Positions 4,847 through 32,978 of a stretch of DNA of 64,000 nt are shown in pieces. The position numbers were made by a program, and so were the translations under genes. Below the pieces are notes generated by a model, which made no database searches, was not told where the DNA came from, and saw only the letters and a program-made list of their open reading frames with translations. Position 1 is the first letter of the stretch, and every line of letters begins with the position of its first letter. The stretch is from assembly GCA_947495075.1 (NCBI GenBank), contig CANLXH010000002.1, positions 1,261,849 through 1,325,848 on the forward strand, written 5' to 3'. The DNA comes from an uncultured Croceitalea sp. Its GTDB lineage: Bacteria > Bacteroidota > Bacteroidia > Flavobacteriales > Flavobacteriaceae.

Positions 4847-5623
4847 ATGTCAATAGCATTAAAGATTGAAAATCAGGTGGCTTACATAACATTGAATAGA
4901 CCTGAGGTTTTCAATAGTTTTAATAGAGAAATGGCTTTAAGTCTGCAATCTATCATGGATGATTGTGAGACCAACCCGCAGGTTAGAGCAATAGTTCTAA
5001 CCGGAAATGGAAAAGCATTCTGCGCTGGTCAAGATTTAAAAGAAGTAACAGACCAAGAGTTGAATCCAGGATTTAAAAAAATACTCGAAGAACATTACAA
5101 TCCAATCATAACAAGAATACGAACTATAAAAAAACCAATAATTGCTGCCGTAAATGGAGTAGCAGCAGGAGCAGGAGCGAATATTGCGTTGGCGTGTGAT
5201 ATTGTTGTGGCACATGATAAAGTAAGCTTTATTCAAGCTTTTAGTTTAATTGGTTTAGTTCCCGATAGCGCAGGAACTTTTTTCTTACCACGTTTAATTG
5301 GATTTCAAAAAGCATCGGCATTGGCTATGTTAGGGGATAAAATTGGTGCAGAAGAAGCTGAAAAAATGGGAATGATTTACAAATGTGTCTCTTTAGAGGA
5401 ATTTGATGAAACCATAAACAAACTAGCTGTAAAATTGGCTAGCATGCCGACCAAAGCACTTGGATTTATTAAAGAGCTATTTAATCACTCTATGACAAAT
5501 ACACTTGAAGAACAATTGACATTAGAATCTAAATTACAGATTGAAGCAGCACAAAGTGAAGATTATGCAGAAGGTGTAGCTGCGTTCATTGAAAAACGTA
5601 AACCAAACTTTAAAGGGAATTAG
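4847..5623 (+). CDS. paaG: 1,2-epoxyphenylacetyl-CoA isomerase (PaaG), crotonase family
   Basis: 258 residues with a crotonase fold. The oxyanion-hole motif AFCAGQDLKE (about 57-66) is characteristic of PaaG, as is AAGAGANIALACD (about 106-118). D140 in GLVPDSAG corresponds to the catalytic aspartate used by PaaG in place of the usual glutamate. It converts the ring epoxide to the oxepin-CoA and also handles double-bond isomerisation later in the path. It starts four bases after paaD. Confidence 0.92.
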   Translation: MSIALKIENQVAYITLNRPEVFNSFNREMALSLQSIMDDCETNPQVRAIVLTGNGKAFCAGQDLKEVTDQELNPGFKKILEEHYNPIITRIRTIKKPIIAAVNGVAAGAGANIALACDIVVAHDKVSFIQAFSLIGLVPDSAGTFFLPRLIGFQKASALAMLGDKIGAEEAEKMGMIYKCVSLEEFDETINKLAVKLASMPTKALGFIKELFNHSMTNTLEEQLTLESKLQIEAAQSEDYAEGVAAFIEKRKPNFKGN

Positions 5624-5642
5624 TATATAGTTTAGTTGTCTT

Positions 5643-5704
5643 CCTGAACTGGTTTCAGGATTTCATAAATGTTAATACTATCTGTTCGAGCGTAGTCGCG
5701 AACA
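5643..5704 (+). repeat. two short inverted repeats in the paaG-paaH gap
   Basis: CCTGAA (5643-5648) pairs with TTCAGG (5654-5659), and TGTTCG (5683-5688) pairs with CGAACA (5699-5704). The sequences resemble the dispersed repeat fragments seen at 6926-6955 and 30295-30500. No coding potential was seen. Confidence 0.4.
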
Positions 5705-5739
5705 AAGTAAAATAGAAATACAAGTTTAATTAAAAAAGA

Positions 5740-5757
5740 TTCCTGCTTTCGCAGGAA
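5740..5757 (+). repeat. start-proximal CCTGC/GCAGG hairpin before paaH
   Basis: TTCCTGC (5740-5746), loop TTTC, GCAGGAA (5751-5757): a perfect 7-bp stem ending six bases before the ATG at 5764. This is the best copy of the repeat family found in this operon. Confidence 0.7.
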
Positions 5758-5763
5758 ATGAAT

Positions 5764-6918
5764 ATGAATGTAGGGATTATTGGTTCAGGTACAATGGGGA
5801 GTGGTATTGCGCAAGTTGCGGCTACTGCTGGTTGTAAAGTAAAATTATTCGATACCAATCAAGCTGTTTTAGATAAAGCAAAAGTTAGTTTAGAAAAGAT
5901 TCTAAATCGGTTAATTGAAAAAGGAAGAATCAACGCTGATGAGAAAAATAGAATTCAGTCTAACATTTCTTATGTTGATAGTTTAAAAGACTTGGCTGAT
6001 TCAAACTTAACGATTGAAGCAATTATAGAAAATCTTGAGATTAAAAAGAAAGTGTTCGTTGAACTTGAAAGCTATGTTGCCGATGATTGTATTATAGCAT
6101 CAAATACATCTAGTTTGTCAATTGCTTCAATTGCATCTTCCTTAGAGAAGCCAGAACGTTGCGTTGGTATTCACTTTTTTAATCCAGCACCTTTAATGAA
6201 ATTGGTTGAGGTGATTCCTGCGATTCAAACCTCAAAAACAGTATTGAATAAATCTGTAGAAGTAATAACCAGTTGGAAAAAGACAGTTGCCGTCGCCAAA
6301 GATACCCCAGGTTTTATTGTTAATAGAGTGGCGAGACCATTTTATGGGGAAGCCTTGCGAATTTATGAAGAAGGTATTGCAGATTTTGCGACTATAGATT
6401 GGAGTTTAAAAACTATTGGTGGTTTTAAAATGGGACCATTTGAACTGATGGATTTTATTGGTAACGATGTCAATTATACAGTAACAGAAACTGTGTTTAC
6501 AGCATTTTATTACGACCCAAGATACAAGCCAGCATTTACGCAAAAACGTTTTTCGGAAGCAGGTTATTTAGGACGTAAATCTGGGAGAGGTTATTATGAT
6601 TACGCAGAAGGAGCAATTAAACCAAATCCAATAGAAGATAAAGAGCTTGCAGAAAAGATTTTTAATCGTGTTTTAGTCATGCTCATTAACGAAGCTGCAG
6701 ATGCCTTGTTTTTAAATATTGCATCGGCAGAAGATATAGACAATGCCATGACTAAAGGTGTTAATTATCCCAAGGGATTATTGACTTGGGCAGATGAAAT
6801 AGGAATTAATAAATGTGTTACAGCATTAGATAGGTTGTATGATGAATACCATGAAGATAGATACAGGTGTAGCCTATTATTACGTAAAATGAATAGAGAA
6901 CATAAAACATTTTTTTAA
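5764..6918 (+). CDS. paaH: 3-hydroxyadipyl-CoA dehydrogenase (PaaH)
   Basis: About 384 residues. Rossmann motif GIIGSGTMGSGIAQ is at the N-terminus, NTSSLSI lies in the middle, and the active-site region GIHFFNPAPLMKLVEV is typical of 3-hydroxyacyl-CoA dehydrogenases. A C-terminal dimerisation domain is present (from about 190, TPGFIVNRVARP). It oxidises 3-hydroxyadipyl-CoA with NAD+ in the beta-oxidation-like end of the pathway. An ATG at 5758 is also in frame. The second ATG at 5764 is chosen because the equivalent position is used in paaI. Confidence 0.93.
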   Translation: MNVGIIGSGTMGSGIAQVAATAGCKVKLFDTNQAVLDKAKVSLEKILNRLIEKGRINADEKNRIQSNISYVDSLKDLADSNLTIEAIIENLEIKKKVFVELESYVADDCIIASNTSSLSIASIASSLEKPERCVGIHFFNPAPLMKLVEVIPAIQTSKTVLNKSVEVITSWKKTVAVAKDTPGFIVNRVARPFYGEALRIYEEGIADFATIDWSLKTIGGFKMGPFELMDFIGNDVNYTVTETVFTAFYYDPRYKPAFTQKRFSEAGYLGRKSGRGYYDYAEGAIKPNPIEDKELAEKIFNRVLVMLINEAADALFLNIASAEDIDNAMTKGVNYPKGLLTWADEIGINKCVTALDRLYDEYHEDRYRCSLLLRKMNREHKTFF

Positions 6919-6925
6919 TTATTAA

Positions 6926-6955
6926 GGTCACCTTGAGCACAGTCGAAAGGTCTTA
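6926..6955 (+). repeat. dispersed repeat fragment
   Basis: The CCTTGAGCACAGTCGAAAGG core lies within the paaH-paaI gap. It has the look of the short TTGAGC...GTCGAAA repeats common between genes in Flavobacteriia, and is related in style to the copies at 30295-30500. Noncoding. Confidence 0.4.
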
Positions 6956-6977
6956 TAATTAGAGTGAAATAATAAGA

Positions 6978-6995
6978 TTTCCACTTTCGTGGGAA
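6978..6995 (+). repeat. start-proximal hairpin before paaI
   Basis: TTTCCAC (6978-6984), loop TTTC, GTGGGAA (6989-6995), with one wobble pair, ending six bases before the paaI ATG. The loop and the spacing to the start are the same as before paaH, but four stem positions are changed, mostly in compensating pairs (CCTGC/GCAGG versus CCAC/GTGG). Confidence 0.65.
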
Positions 6996-7001
6996 ATAAA
7001 T

Positions 7002-7409
7002 ATGAAAGGAGAGCAGATTCCACATAAAATGTTATCAGAAGACCCGTTCAGCACTTGGATGGGGATTGAAATATTGGAATGTGAGATAGGGCGATGTAAA
7101 GTAGGGATGAAAGTTAGAGGAGATATGCTAAACAGTATGGGCAAAGCACATGGTGGTATTAGCTATACACTAGCCGATACGGCTTTTGGCTTTATAGCGA
7201 ACACGCATGGTAAATATGCTGTGTCTATTGAAACAAGCATTAACCATATTGAAGCTTTAAATGAGGGTGACTATTTGGTTGCTGAATCAGTAATAGAAAA
7301 AGTAAATAACAAATTAGGGTTTAATATCATTGAGGTGAAACGAGGTGATGAATTAATAGCGCTTTTTAAAGGTGTGGTGTATAGAACTCAAAAAGATTGG
7401 GAAGAATGA
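7002..7409 (+). CDS. paaI: hotdog-fold thioesterase PaaI
   Basis: 135 residues. The hotdog signature is clear: MGKAHGGISYTLADTAFGF (about 46-64), including the HGG and the catalytic Asp of LAD. PaaI hydrolyses CoA esters that stall the pathway, freeing trapped CoA. Its stop codon overlaps the ATG of the following thiolase gene (ATGA), indicating translational coupling. Confidence 0.92.
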   Translation: MKGEQIPHKMLSEDPFSTWMGIEILECEIGRCKVGMKVRGDMLNSMGKAHGGISYTLADTAFGFIANTHGKYAVSIETSINHIEALNEGDYLVAESVIEKVNNKLGFNIIEVKRGDELIALFKGVVYRTQKDWEE

Positions 7410-8614
7410 AAGAAGCATATATAATAGATGGTGTTCGCACGCCAATAGGAAATTATAAAGGAACCTTATCAGCTGTTCGCACAGATGATTTAGGAGCCTT
7501 GGTTATTGCAGAAGTTGTAAAACGAAATCCAAATATACCAAAAGAAGCCTATGATGATGTAATTATGGGTTGCGCCAATCAAGCAGGTGAAGATAATCGT
7601 AATGTTGCAAGGATGTCTTCACTATTGGCAGGGTTGCCCTTTACGGTACCGGGCGAAACGGTGAACAGATTATGTAGTTCAGGATTGTCAGCGATTATTC
7701 ATGCAAACAGAGCAATAAAAGCAGGCGATGGTGATGTATTTATTTCTGGTGGAGTAGAAAACATGACAAGAGGACCTTACGTGATGGCGAAACCATCCAC
7801 GGCATTTGGTGGAGATTCCAAAATGTATGATTCTACATTTGGCTGGCGCTTTATCAACCCTAAAATGCAACAACTTTACGGAACTGATGGTATGGGCAAT
7901 ACTGCGGAAAATCTTGTAGAGAAATATAATATTTCTAGAGAAGACCAAGATAAGTTTGCGTATTGGAGCCAGATAAAGGCTACCAAAGCACAAGAAAATG
8001 GGCGTTTGGCTAAAGAAATAATTGCTGTAGAAATTCCACAACGTAAAAAAGACCCAATTCAATTTTCAAAAGATGAATTTGTAAAACCAAATACATCATT
8101 GGAGATTTTAGGAAAATTAAGGGCGGCTTTTAAAAAAGAAGGAGGCAGTGTAACTGCTGGAAATTCATCAGGATTAAACGATGGTGCAGCGGCTACTATT
8201 ATAGCTTCTGAAAATGCTGTAAAAAAATATAATTTAAAACCATTAGCAAAGATTGTAAGTTCTGCTGTGGTTGGAGTAGAACCAAGAATTATGGGAATAG
8301 GTCCAGTACAAGCTTCAAATAAAGCATTGGAAAAGGCTGGACTAACGCTGAATGATATTGATGTTATTGAACTCAATGAAGCCTTTGCTGCACAAGCTTT
8401 AGCATGCACGAGAGCTTGGGGGCTAGCCGATGATGACCTAAGATTAAATCCTAATGGTGGATCAATTGCCATTGGTCACCCATTGGGAGTAACTGGTGCT
8501 AGAATTGCCTATTCAGCGGCACTAGAGTTACAAGAGCAAAACAAAAGATATGCACTAATTACCATGTGTGTTGGTGTAGGACAAGGTTATGCTGCAATTA
8601 TAGAAAGAGCTTAA
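7406..8614 (+). CDS. paaJ: 3-oxoadipyl-CoA / 3-oxo-5,6-dehydrosuberyl-CoA thiolase (PaaJ)
   Basis: 402 residues from the ATG at 7406; a TTG at 7397 is in frame but less likely. It is a biosynthetic/degradative thiolase with nucleophilic C90 in NRLCSSGLSA, the NEAFAAQ loop, H358 in GHPLG and C388 in MCVGVGQG. It cleaves 3-oxoadipyl-CoA to succinyl-CoA and acetyl-CoA, and also the eight-carbon intermediate. It is the last gene before the inserted GIY-YIG remnant. Confidence 0.93.
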   Translation: MKEAYIIDGVRTPIGNYKGTLSAVRTDDLGALVIAEVVKRNPNIPKEAYDDVIMGCANQAGEDNRNVARMSSLLAGLPFTVPGETVNRLCSSGLSAIIHANRAIKAGDGDVFISGGVENMTRGPYVMAKPSTAFGGDSKMYDSTFGWRFINPKMQQLYGTDGMGNTAENLVEKYNISREDQDKFAYWSQIKATKAQENGRLAKEIIAVEIPQRKKDPIQFSKDEFVKPNTSLEILGKLRAAFKKEGGSVTAGNSSGLNDGAAATIIASENAVKKYNLKPLAKIVSSAVVGVEPRIMGIGPVQASNKALEKAGLTLNDIDVIELNEAFAAQALACTRAWGLADDDLRLNPNGGSIAIGHPLGVTGARIAYSAALELQEQNKRYALITMCVGVGQGYAAIIERA

Positions 8615-27195: not shown

Positions 27196-27739
27196 TTACT
27201 GAAACAAAACATACCTAGGTGGTACCAACCTATTTAGTCGTATATGTACCAGCATTTGTGCTCGGTGATGCGTGATATAATCTGCAAGCAGCATAAAAAT
27301 TTGACGTTTTGTTCTATCCAAACCAAAATAATCTAGCCTATCTTCTAGTTTGGTGGTATCGAATTCTTTTAGCAGCTTTGCGGTGGCATCAAAAGTCTTT
27401 TCCACTAAGTCAATCATCTCTTTTTTAGACTTGCCTTTTACCTTAAAAATGGTGTCCGTTTGCCAAACTCGAGCTTCTCGTCCACCTAAAAGTGACTGGC
27501 TATGCCAGTCCATAGCATAGGCGATATGCAACAGGTTTTGGGCAAAGCTTAACGATTCTGGTGTTGCTTTAAAGTTGTAGTTATCCTCTGGCATGGTCTC
27601 TGCCAAAAGAACCAAATATTTTTTGGAGTTTTCCAAACGCTCTACAAAGTCTCTGATAAAGTTGTCTTCTTGTGCAAATAGCTGTGAAGAAACGAAGCTA
27701 AAGAATAAAACTATATATTAGAATTAATTGTTGTTTCAT
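27196..27739 (-). pseudogene. exported DinB-family protein, frameshifted in the signal peptide
   Basis: The minus-strand ATG at 27739 opens MKQQLILIYSFIL and then hits TAG. A shift of +1 at that point continues FSFVSSQLFAQEDNFIRDFV and joins a clean DinB-like domain running to 27196 (ERLENSKKYL, HIAYAMDWHSQSLLGG, DYITHHRAQM). The composite is a classic signal peptide plus mature domain, so one base appears lost or gained. The 146-codon downstream frame has only a TTG to start from. Either the gene is recently inactivated or the frame is corrected by slippage. The DinB His residues (HIAYAMDWH, THH) are intact. Confidence 0.7.
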
Positions 27740-27797: not shown

Positions 27798-30122
27798 TTA
27801 TCCAAGTTTAGTTATTAAAAAACCCTCTATTAGCTCTACTGATTTTTTCCAATTATCATTTTCCTTTAACTGTTTCTTATAATCTGGATGAATATATATT
27901 CTTAACCATTGTAAATGTGAATCAAAATAATTATTTATCCCGCTTACTATTCCAGATATGTCAGTGAGCTTTGCAACAGATTTATCATATTTTACTACAT
28001 TAATATCTTTTCCCAATTTTTTATTCTCATCTCTTGGGATATCTATTAGTAAGTTAATCTTATCTTTTTCGAAATTGATAACATTAGAAAGTCTATTTTC
28101 TAATTCAATTCTTAACTCATCTAATTCAGAATACTTCATACTAGCGACTCTCTCACAAATACCACTTAAAACACTATCCTCTTCAGATTTGTTAATTATA
28201 TAAAGACGTTTGAAGATACGGGGTCTTTTTGCATTTATTAGGTTTAATAAGTTTAATATGTCAGGTTTCTCTAAGGCAAAATCTTTGAATATTTTTAATA
28301 ACTCATTTGGAGTTGCGAATAAAAATTCATCAATAATTTTACTTTCAAAATCACTTAAAGATGCAAGTTCAAAAATAATTTGTTTAAGCATAGCTGTATA
28401 TGCTCTATTGGGTTGATTCCAATATATGTTTTTATAAAGCCAATATCTTGCTGAAATGACTTGTTCCACAGAACTAACACCTTGACTTTTTATGGCAATT
28501 TTATTGTTATAAACATCTAAAAAGGCAACAAGACTTTCAATATCTAGTTGAAAGCCATTGGACATCCCTAAATGATGGGGGTCTCTTTGGAGGAAATCTA
28601 GTACTCTTACATCAATTGAGGAATTCAATAAAGAATATATTATTTGTACTTCCTGATTTTCAAAACCACTAGGAGATCCACATATGATTTTTTTTACAAG
28701 TTCAATATCTATGTTATCAAAATGTTCATTGATAGTATCTAATAAGCTATATTTAAAACCATTAGATTCTTCTTTGTAATTAAGTACTTTATGTAGTAGA
28801 TTTTTTTGATTAATATTTTTTAAAAGTGATTTCTCAGAATTTCTTAGTTCATGAATTGCAAAGGAAAATGGGAATCGTGTTGAATTTGCAAGTAGAGAAG
28901 AAATTAATGCTAGCTCGAGTAAATCTTTGCTAAATAATTCAATAAACTTTTCTTTTTTTAATAAACCAATTAATACCCTTCGCATGTTTTCATATGTTCC
29001 TAAAAGATGCTCATACCTTGTATGATTAGAACCAGGAAAGATTATTGAGCCCATTAATAGTTGAGGGACATTTTTTAATCTTATTAAAGAGGGATGATTG
29101 GTTATTTTCTTTACTCTATATGTGAATAATACATCATTTAAAGGGATTAACTTCTTCCAACTACCTCCATCCGATTCGGAGAGTTCTGGTAGGCCAGCAA
29201 TAGTCCTATGGATCGGCCTTACACGTTCAATAGCTCTTTCTAAGTCTTCTAATGAATAATATTTTTTCTTTAAAACAGAAATCAATGCGTTTAGCCAAGA
29301 GTGTTCACTCTTATCTGTCATGGATATGCGTAAGATTTTTTCAATACACTTTTCAAATGTTAATTTTACAGAATGAATATCCCAATTAGGCTGTAATTTT
29401 TTGAATACTTTAAAATTTACTTTTTTGTTTTTTATTTTGAGTACCTCTTCTGGCATATAAGCACTGGTGCCAGTAACTAATAGTTCTTTAGTATTTGCCA
29501 TTGCGCTACTCCCTAAAGTATGTCCTACACCTAAGTCTCCAATAATTACATGGAAACCTTCACTTGTAAGATTAATGAAGATATTTTTAGGAGCAATATC
29601 ACAATGAAAAAATTTTCTGTTATGTAAATAAATTAATCCATTAAGGATTTGTTGAAAAAGATCAAAAATTGACTCATGATTTTTAAAATACTTTTCTTTT
29701 GTTTCGTTGTCTTCAAATATTTCTTCAAGTGTCTTGCCGGAAACAAAATCTGATACAATGTAGGGTATGTTTACTTCATCTCGATTATAGTAACCTCCAT
29801 CAATAATTTTTAAAATGTTTTGATGATTGAACTTTGATATATTTACAATCTCATCTTCAAAATTTATTGAGGAAATATATTTATCCAGTGATTTGATTAA
29901 GTCATCTTTGAAAACAAAAAACTTAATGGCTCTGGTAGTTGCAACTTCTGGAACGAATTCTTGATTTACTTTGAAGACAATACCGGACCCTCCTTCTCCT
30001 AAAACAATATTATCAGAATTTTCATCTTTTTGAAATTTATAGTTATCTATTTTAATATTTTTTATTGATAAAAGCTCAGTTCTTGTTTTTTTAGCCATTG
30101 ATTTTTTAATTATACCAACCAT
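27798..30122 (-). CDS. Ser/Thr protein kinase fused to a degenerate SAMHD1/COG1078-like HD domain
   Basis: About 774 residues; numbering here is from a TTG one codon upstream of the ATG at 30122, and another ATG is at 30098. Residues about 30-300 are a Hanks-type kinase. Visible motifs are GEGGSG (43-48), the AIK lysine K68, HCDIAPKN (D176, N181), DLG (197-199) and MPEE in place of APE. Residues about 340-600 match the dNTPase-like HD fold: NHTRYEHLLG (H368), SIDVRVLDFLQRDPHH (503-518) and an SARYWLYKNIYWN helix. The HD pair expected near 413 is replaced by LANSTRFPF, and the third metal Asp near 507 is Arg. The enzyme half is therefore probably catalytically dead but could bind a nucleotide. 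No transmembrane segment is seen. The gene stands alone and is AT-rich, next to a repeat cluster. It may be a signalling or defence protein. Confidence 0.8.
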   Translation of the reverse strand: MVGIIKKSMAKKTRTELLSIKNIKIDNYKFQKDENSDNIVLGEGGSGIVFKVNQEFVPEVATTRAIKFFVFKDDLIKSLDKYISSINFEDEIVNISKFNHQNILKIIDGGYYNRDEVNIPYIVSDFVSGKTLEEIFEDNETKEKYFKNHESIFDLFQQILNGLIYLHNRKFFHCDIAPKNIFINLTSEGFHVIIGDLGVGHTLGSSAMANTKELLVTGTSAYMPEEVLKIKNKKVNFKVFKKLQPNWDIHSVKLTFEKCIEKILRISMTDKSEHSWLNALISVLKKKYYSLEDLERAIERVRPIHRTIAGLPELSESDGGSWKKLIPLNDVLFTYRVKKITNHPSLIRLKNVPQLLMGSIIFPGSNHTRYEHLLGTYENMRRVLIGLLKKEKFIELFSKDLLELALISSLLANSTRFPFSFAIHELRNSEKSLLKNINQKNLLHKVLNYKEESNGFKYSLLDTINEHFDNIDIELVKKIICGSPSGFENQEVQIIYSLLNSSIDVRVLDFLQRDPHHLGMSNGFQLDIESLVAFLDVYNNKIAIKSQGVSSVEQVISARYWLYKNIYWNQPNRAYTAMLKQIIFELASLSDFESKIIDEFLFATPNELLKIFKDFALEKPDILNLLNLINAKRPRIFKRLYIINKSEEDSVLSGICERVASMKYSELDELRIELENRLSNVINFEKDKINLLIDIPRDENKKLGKDINVVKYDKSVAKLTDISGIVSGINNYFDSHLQWLRIYIHPDYKKQLKENDNWKKSVELIEGFLITKLG

Positions 30123-30243
30123 CAAATTGGCTTATTAATAGATTTATTTGTTAAAACCATTAGATAATCCTCTATTTGATATTTTTCGGGGAAAGAAAAT
30201 AAGGGGTTAATATAGAAGTAAAAACACTTTTTTGCAATAGACA

Positions 30244-30267: not shown

Positions 30268-30294
30268 GCTGTAGATGTTTGTAGTGCAAAGGAA

Positions 30295-30500
30295 GAGATT
30301 TCTCACGCTCACTACGTTCAATTCGAAATGACGGTATTTTCGGTTTCAGTCATTTCGACATAAGTAGTTTTACTACGATTGAGAAATCCCACGTAAAAGG
30401 TATACTTGGACGGGGCTGCCTGTTCTGTTTAGGCAGGCTCAACGTAACAATGTTTAAAGTATTAGATTTCTCACGCTCGCTACGCTCGGTTCGAAATGAC
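30295..30500. repeat. dispersed repeat cluster (TTTCTCACGCTC...TTCGAAATGAC)
   Basis: Copy 1 (30295-30332) and copy 2 (30464-30500) share GATTTCTCACGCTC-x-CTACG-x-TC and TTCGAAATGAC. Between them, GTCATTTCGAC...GATTGAGAAATC (30345-30390) is an inverted relative. The arrangement suggests short nonautonomous repeats inserted next to one another. Confidence 0.6.
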
Positions 30501-31943: not shown

Positions 31944-32978
31944 TCATTTAAATATGGAATAGATTGTAATTTCTGTTTGTTTTCCTTTAAGTGGGATAGC
32001 GCCTTTTTTTGAGAATGAATACTCTTCTAATAGCAATTGATTTTTTAAAGTTTCTGAAATTAATAAAGAAGCTTCTAATTTATTGCATTGCCCTTGTATA
32101 CGGGCAGCCGTGTTAATAGTGTCGCCATGGTAAGCGATTTCTTTTTTATACTTTCCAACTTCGGTTACGGTAACTAAACCAGCATGTAAACCTGCTTTAA
32201 AAAAAGGTTCACAATTGTATTTTTCTTGGTAGTAATCGCTTCGTCGTTTTAAGAATTCTGCAAAATTAAAATAGGCCTCTAGGCAGTTTTGATTTTTTAG
32301 ACCTTTTTCTAGTTGCCATGTTAGTACAGCTTCGTCTCCGACATATTGGTAGATTTCGGCTTCATGTTCGAGTACAATAGCTAAATCGTTAAAACAGTCT
32401 TGAATAAGCATGCTGTATTTTATATGTCCGAGACGTTCAGCTAAGACAGTAGAGGCTTGCAAATCTAAAAACATAAAAATGCGTTCTTCTTCACTTGGGG
32501 TATAGAATTTACCACGGATTAGCTTCATTAAGTTACCTTCTCCTAGCATTAGATTTACTTGTCTTAGTACCGTTAAAACGGAATCTGTTACCCAAATGTA
32601 GAAATAGATGGCACCGCTCCCCTTATCCATTGCAAAAGTTTGCAAACTTATATCTGTGCCAAAATAGAATTGATAGACCCAGTAAGCCACAAAAGTCATG
32701 AAAATGATAAAAAGGAAGGCATATAGGGTCCTTAAAAGCAAAAGCTTGCCTAAAGTGAGTTTTCGATACAGTTTTTTTTCTACCCAAATAGAAGCTAGCC
32801 CAGAAATGATACCCAAAATAGGCCCGAGCGTTAGTCCAATAATTATACCTGATTTAAAGTCAAACTTTAATTGCCCTAATTCTTCGGTACCAACGCCTCT
32901 GATAATTACAAGAAATAGCATAGATAGTGTCCACCCAATACTATAAAACTTTAGAATGTGCCAACTTCGCTTACTCAT
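31944..32978 (-). CDS. membrane-anchored class III adenylate/guanylate cyclase
   Basis: 344 residues. The N-terminal membrane region has three to four helices (about 10-30, 43-65, 80-103, 122-140). The cyclase domain (about 165-344) has metal aspartates D172 in FMFLDLQAST and D215 in YVGDEAVLTW. HGDTINTAARI (284-294) supplies the D286/N289/R293 transition-state residues. All key residues appear intact, so it should be active, most likely on ATP. It is transcribed away from the ankyrin gene upstream boundary, as a single gene. Confidence 0.9.
   Translation of the reverse strand: MSKRSWHILKFYSIGWTLSMLFLVIIRGVGTEELGQLKFDFKSGIIIGLTLGPILGIISGLASIWVEKKLYRKLTLGKLLLLRTLYAFLFIIFMTFVAYWVYQFYFGTDISLQTFAMDKGSGAIYFYIWVTDSVLTVLRQVNLMLGEGNLMKLIRGKFYTPSEEERIFMFLDLQASTVLAERLGHIKYSMLIQDCFNDLAIVLEHEAEIYQYVGDEAVLTWQLEKGLKNQNCLEAYFNFAEFLKRRSDYYQEKYNCEPFFKAGLHAGLVTVTEVGKYKKEIAYHGDTINTAARIQGQCNKLEASLLISETLKNQLLLEEYSFSKKGAIPLKGKQTEITIYSIFK

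Follow-up and report, generated by a model that had tools for sequence, protein, structure and literature searches.

GCN2 of eukaryotes is an active protein kinase joined to a degenerate HisRS, and it is this half that is used as a tRNA sensor. A comparable change of role is described for RelA, whose hydrolase-type HD domain is no longer catalytic and has come to regulate the linked enzyme (PMC9974481). SAMHD1 and its homologue EF1143 (PMC7045340) carry an HD-type active site. According to the available text of PMC7311409, Gln149 and residue 319 of SAMHD1 (printed there as Glu319 and taken here as Asp319) hold the 3'-OH, Leu150 and Tyr374 shut out ribose, and Arg164, His210, Lys312 and Arg366 hold the phosphates. 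The H206R/D207N variant has neither metal nor catalysis, yet a crystal structure shows dNTP in its site; the catalytic site of H210A is reported to lack nucleotide (PMC7045340). In Clover, the SAMHD1-superfamily protein CloA responds to dTTP during infection (PMC12265719).

Here, we describe a gene from an uncultured Croceitalea sp. that combines a kinase with a SAMHD1-like domain. The window analysed is a stretch of 64,000 nucleotides. The first-pass annotation of this DNA proposed that one gene joins a kinase to a catalytically dead SAMHD1/COG1078 domain, and the reading frame, profile matches, alignment and predicted fold all confirm it (Table 1). A Balneola MAG (JAEPNB010000004.1; Balneolota in the NCBI taxonomy) encodes a protein that is 76% identical to the window protein over 766 aa and shows the same losses. 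It is the only full-length close homologue, and since its match begins at the ATG of residue 10, translation more likely starts there.

Table 1. Features of the gene and of the gap upstream of it (window positions; SAMHD1 equivalents in brackets)
Feature	Position	Strand	Remark
Kinase + pseudo-HD (pseudo-dNTPase) fusion gene	27798..30125	-	ORF; 775 aa from TTG
Likelier start, ATG	30096-30098	-	Residue 10, gives 766 aa; codon check and Balneola match
Hanks-type protein kinase domain	29418..30005	-	Residues 41-236; G43-x-G45-x-x-G48, K68, H174-C-D176-I-A-P-K-N181, D197-L-G
SAMHD1/EF1143-like domain	27801..29225	-	Residues about 301-775
H373 (H167), retained metal-type His	29007..29009	-	Alignment; R370 (R164), 3 codons upstream, also kept
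A413-N414 replacing the HD pair (H206-D207)	28884..28889	-	Alignment
R507 replacing the third metal Asp (D311), then V508 for K312	28605..28607	-	Alignment
D515 (D319), retained deoxyribose-contact position	28581..28583	-	Alignment
HD_assoc_2 region, with R560 (R366) and Y568 (Y374)	27861..28544	-	Residues 528-755; Pfam PF19276, 1.5e-7
Intergenic gap on the upstream side, with a 45-nt repeat present twice	30288..30500		Copies at 30288-30332 and 30456-30500

The core motif residues of a Hanks kinase noted earlier (G43, G45, K68, D176, N181 and D197) are all present, and the Pkinase profile PF00069 scores 76.2 bits against a cut-off of 31.7. Hanks kinases usually, though not universally, have a Lys at +2 from the catalytic Asp. 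In the loop HCDIAPKN of the window protein, A178 occupies this +2 position and K180 stands at +4, an arrangement that we take to resemble the tyrosine-kinase loop. The same loop is found in both copies with a dead HD domain, that is, in the window and in the Balneola locus (L043). In the four intact-HD fusions described below, Lys is at +2; loss of the HD pair thus goes together with a different kinase loop. E226, invariant in the six kinases aligned, corresponds to a Lys in the Balneola copy. Since the predicted models of the kinase are of low confidence (pLDDT below 50 over most of it in the full-length model; mean pLDDT 60.9 for the kinase alone), conclusions about this half rest on sequence. 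The best PADLOC matches of the protein are to the kinases MADS MAD6, PD-T4-6 and MkoA, all to the kinase domain.

An HD-type fold had been expected after residue 340; structure prediction and fold search place it after residue ~300, with a SAMHD1-like fold spanning the whole of residues 301-775 and including the COG1078 C-terminal region on the HD-superfamily fold. The structures 2o6i and 4lrl are presumably those of EF1143, and the SAMHD1 numbering used here is anchored on H206/D207. Alignment to SAMHD1 upholds the replacement of the HD pair by Ala-Asn and of the third metal Asp by Arg. One metal His is kept, as had been claimed, but it is H373 rather than residue 368, and it is the only one of the four ligands of the H...HD...D site to be retained, with A413, N414 and R507 in place of the others. 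The catalytic residues H210, D218 and H233 are replaced by R417, H425 and N439; further, H215 is replaced by F422, K312 by V508, and D137 by N343. The retained equivalents are H373 (H167), R370 (R164), Q355 (Q149), L356 (L150), D515 (D319), R560 (R366) and Y568 (Y374). Thus, the deoxyribose-selecting set (Q149, L150, 319 and Y374) is fully kept, as are two of the four phosphate contacts (R370 and R560).

With metal site and catalytic residues lost, the SAMHD1-like half should not hydrolyse dNTPs. The idea that it is a sensor gains from the retention of the deoxyribose-reading residues. By analogy, the H206R/D207N result favours a pseudo-enzyme that binds, and the H210A result tells against it. 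The pocket might not bind triphosphates, the phosphate-holding Lys (V508) and two pocket His (R417 and F422) being lost.

The alignment of HD domains has 60 rows, made up of 54 stand-alone proteins, the window and Balneola proteins and four further fusions (P0003-P0006). H206, D207, H215 and D311 are kept in 58 of them, and the exceptions are the window and Balneola proteins only, both of which keep the equivalents of Q149, L150, R164, H167, D319, R366 and Y374. The HD loss is shared by the window and Balneola proteins and is absent from the other four fusions. The stand-alone rows comprise 28 from the genome search (26 of one family, f18), seven genus paralogues and 19 viral sequences. The viral rows and P0006 were retrieved by a scan with patterns, one of which demanded the HD motif, so that HD conservation can be judged fairly only on the 35 genome rows and P0003-P0005. 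Not among the 60 rows are twelve of the 32 viral loci, which were near-copies, fragments or lacking a matched ORF, and L048, which duplicates L062. In an earlier alignment (A6), five kinase-only proteins had been set against the HD region; they and L063 were dropped from its successor, A7 (19 of 25 rows).

P0003-P0006 all have an intact HD pair and third Asp. P0003 and P0004 come from the genomes G440 and G836, the two matched in a search of 79; P0005 comes from G941, matched together with G440 in a search of 391; and P0006 lies on the IMG/VR contig 3300042261_002397. They share with the window protein the domain order, a PEL motif that precedes the HD domain and R-x-x-x-HP near the C-terminus, and differ from it in the intact metal residues and the usual Lys of the kinase loop. 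P0003 and P0006 are 23-27% identical to the window protein (P0001). A weakly supported branch (87/65) of the HD tree, in which branches are very long, has the dead pair on one side together with three of the intact fusions, and a single origin of the kinase-HD fusion is plausible on this topology.

The gene is rare at the cut-offs used. Its own genome was the only one matched among 397 genomes of the family and among 365 of the class (cut-off 1e-35, which would miss intact fusions such as P0003, at 1.9e-24 to P0001), and the Balneola MAG was the only match among 244 genomes of its class. In six of seven genus relatives, the sole counterpart is a distant HD paralogue with intact motifs (28-31% identity). 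A genome search with 97 matches gave, among the best ~30, frames longer than 600 aa only for the window, Balneola and P0003. The scan of genome contigs found one full-length relative (Balneola) and four loci with the kinase region only; as it used only two peptide patterns, the method itself accounts for part of the rarity. Cut-offs differed between the genome searches, which overlapped in their sets and, when strict, scored few candidates per genome. A single place covering 80% of the query was found in none of the matching plasmid records (0 of 33 for P0001, 0 of 44 for P0003) or phage records (0 of 9 and 0 of 20, respectively). IMG/VR scans gave no relative with P0001, two HD-only loci with query A2, two kinase-only loci with A3, and 32 loci with A4, one of which (L084) has a fusion and two of which (L091 and L093) have no matched ORF.

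The gene appears to have moved horizontally between distant hosts, judging from a sequence comparison with one comparator gene: between the window's genome and the Balneola MAG that gene, presumably TatD-like, is 40% identical, against 76% for the kinase-pseudo-HD protein, which points to transfer. As had been noted for the window, the gene is AT-rich, and this holds for both copies relative to their surroundings (G+C 28.5% vs 34.2% for the window and 30.1% vs 38.8% for the Balneola locus). The ankyrin/PD40 gene upstream was found in two of the seven genus relatives at the cut-off used; in these two, the slot beside it lacks the kinase fusion and holds other genes. Of the repeat cluster proposed beside the gene, two 45-nt copies upstream, 84% alike, are borne out, and a search with a 24-nt core pattern gave no third copy in the window. 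An 18-nt core of the repeat is absent from all 94 loci except L001 and L050, both of which cover the same place.

Enrichment of such fusions near defence genes had been suggested as a check. The locus of P0006 (L094) is a phage contig that carries genes for a portal, a head protease, a Sak4-like protein and an integrase; the fusion, at 5479-8076, is read in the opposite direction to the portal and protease genes. A serine recombinase gene is 584 bp and an AEP-like (PF24387) gene 423 bp away from P0005, and this cluster (L058, 6996-14824), with its resolvase-type recombinase, is possibly a mobile conflict system. P0004 follows, after 212 bp, a DUF2971 gene that matches the PADLOC candidate PDC-S31 at 3.9e-39. 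The Balneola copy lies 80 bp before a GmrSD_N-HNH gene directly downstream on the same strand (L038, 11094-12638); its product, with a weak PADLOC match only (NsnA, 6.1e-9), is a candidate substrate or effector of the kinase. Ordinary genes surround the window copy and adjoin P0003 on the one side that can be seen, P0003 being at a contig end. Neighbours of a defence type or of mobile character are thus seen for four of the six fusion members and not for the window copy, and as a raw count this is only suggestive.

A defence island in the window itself is not supported. PADLOC matches occur in three of ten flanking proteins, all with widespread domains: HIT (1.6e-7), ankyrin (PDC-M72A at 1.1e-17, Ankyrin at 7.6e-6) and class III cyclase (PycC, 6.6e-8); none of the flanking proteins scanned matches an NTase. 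In two relatives, the matching slot was scanned with ten proteins in all: a cyclase has PADLOC matches, and the other nine have none. The class III cyclase-domain protein of the window (31944-32978, minus strand) is also present in the two relatives (L054 and L055), and the slot in L054 (genome G777) holds a second, more distant cyclase copy. On the other side, a DinB-family neighbour (27196-27737, minus strand) is split over two frames, and its signal-peptide-like start (ATG near 27737) runs into a stop; the gene looks frame-shifted.

Taken as a whole, the best explanation of the locus, to which we give slightly less than an even chance, is a cytosolic regulatory protein kinase that is switched by its C-terminal half, a pseudo-dNTPase acting as sensor, and that has a phage-related use. 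Its firmest part is that the kinase is controlled by the pseudo-dNTPase domain, which is somewhat more likely than not. The SAMHD1-like half would most likely still bind a deoxynucleotide or a related ligand, because the fold, the residues that read the 2'-deoxyribose and part of those that hold the phosphates are kept; that the ligand is a deoxynucleotide proper is proposed tentatively. Binding may change the conformation or oligomeric state of the HD half and thus turn the N-terminal kinase on or off. A weaker step is that phage infection would cause a change in the dNTP pool that is sensed in this way, followed by phosphorylation of a growth-arrest or effector target. Phage sensing would be the likeliest use, given that the gene appears mobile and that other fusions are found next to a recombinase, next to candidate defence genes or within a phage contig; a role in defence is put forward with similar reserve. 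Wider still, and doubtful, is a mobile family of deoxynucleotide-receptor kinases, in one lineage of which the dNTPase turned into a pure sensor of phage-caused changes in dNTP pools.

The loss of active-site residues while fusions with intact motifs exist could mean that the gene is decaying or that its HD half is a functionless relic. The first-pass annotation had tied decay to the existence of homologues with intact HD motifs; such homologues exist, but the dead form is also found in a very distant host and is strongly conserved. The window and Balneola genes have saturated synonymous sites (pS 0.81), which speaks against two recently related copies, and still carry the same substitutions. 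Neither frame has an internal stop. Identity between the two proteins is 85% over residues 311-600, 74% over the C-terminus and 70% over the kinase, so that the HD half is the best conserved (246/290 vs 159/226 for HD against kinase, p 9e-5; HD against C-terminus, p 0.007). The pocket segments 340-430 and 490-580 reach 89-90%, with a rough dN/dS of 0.02-0.03 where dS is near saturation. In this one gene pair, the sequences indicate that the dead domain is held harder by selection than the live kinase. Decay is rejected on this evidence, within the limits of a single pair, and a relic is scarcely credible.

The main rival, unlikely though it seems, is that the HD half serves only as a structural or oligomerisation scaffold, or as a platform for proteins or nucleic acids, without binding nucleotides. 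The loss of the K312, H210 and H215 equivalents agrees with it, as do the nucleic acid-bound SAMHD1 structures among the fold matches (6u6z and 8d94) and the spread of conservation between the two copies over the whole domain rather than the pocket alone. The retention of Q355, L356, D515 and Y568 together with R370 and R560 tells against a scaffold, as does the high identity of the pocket segments. A shade less likely again is regulation of the host's own nucleotide supply or replication, unrelated to phage. The solitary gene with ordinary neighbours in the window would suit such a function; its patchy distribution in family and class at the cut-offs used, its absence from the slot in two genus relatives, the signs of transfer and the relative on a phage contig would not. 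That the HD half has gained a new catalytic activity through a different set of residues is quite improbable: R417, R507 and H425 are identical in both copies, but three of the four metal ligands are gone, and we know of no catalysis by such an alternative set on a SAMHD1-like fold. The reading preferred here remains that of a kinase switched by a pseudo-dNTPase sensor.

How does this architecture relate to described systems? No Pfam or NCBIfam match listed, and none of 25 of the 29 PADLOC matches, spans both halves. Among the matches shown, those to MADS MAD6, PD-T4-6 and MkoA are limited to the kinase part; the protein scores 48 bits against the NCBIfam MAD6 equivalog, below the cut-off of 460, and its best PD-T4-6 match is 8e-21, to a profile without a stated cut-off. 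In the literature searched (PMC-indexed preprints and, for the most part, open papers), no title or abstract opening names a kinase-COG1078/SAMHD1 fusion, in agreement with the earlier statement that no described system with this architecture is known. Although each domain, like the principle of a pseudo-enzyme, is known, their combination and the split into dead and intact forms appear undescribed in that literature. The word "kinase" is absent from the available text of the Clover paper (PMC12265719), according to which CloA is an active dGTPase with a strict HD motif and an NTase partner, CloB, whereas the window protein lacks the HD pair. Nucleotide-pool sensing is an emerging theme of phage defence, and Clover senses through the hydrolase itself; with a pseudo-dNTPase serving a kinase, sensing would be parted from hydrolysis and dNTP levels tied to protein phosphorylation. 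With the COG1078/EF1143/SAMHD1 dNTP triphosphohydrolases (PF01966 and PF19276), the protein has in common the fold of its residues 301-775 and the residues that read the deoxyribose, and it differs in lacking the HD pair, the third Asp and the catalytic His and in having an N-terminal kinase. The intact and dead fusions form a natural experiment that allows direct comparison of one architecture in a catalytic and a non-catalytic form. RelA, a long RSH stringent factor, is the nearest shown precedent; the layout alone is comparable, and allostery in the window protein is proposed by analogy, as the HD domain of RelA belongs to another HD family (alarmone hydrolase) and is coupled to a synthetase, not to a kinase. 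GCN2 likewise unites a kinase with a degenerate metabolic enzyme, although that half is a HisRS and senses tRNA. A deoxynucleotide-receptor kinase, if true, would repeat the logic of GCN2 in bacteria, dNTPs replacing tRNA.
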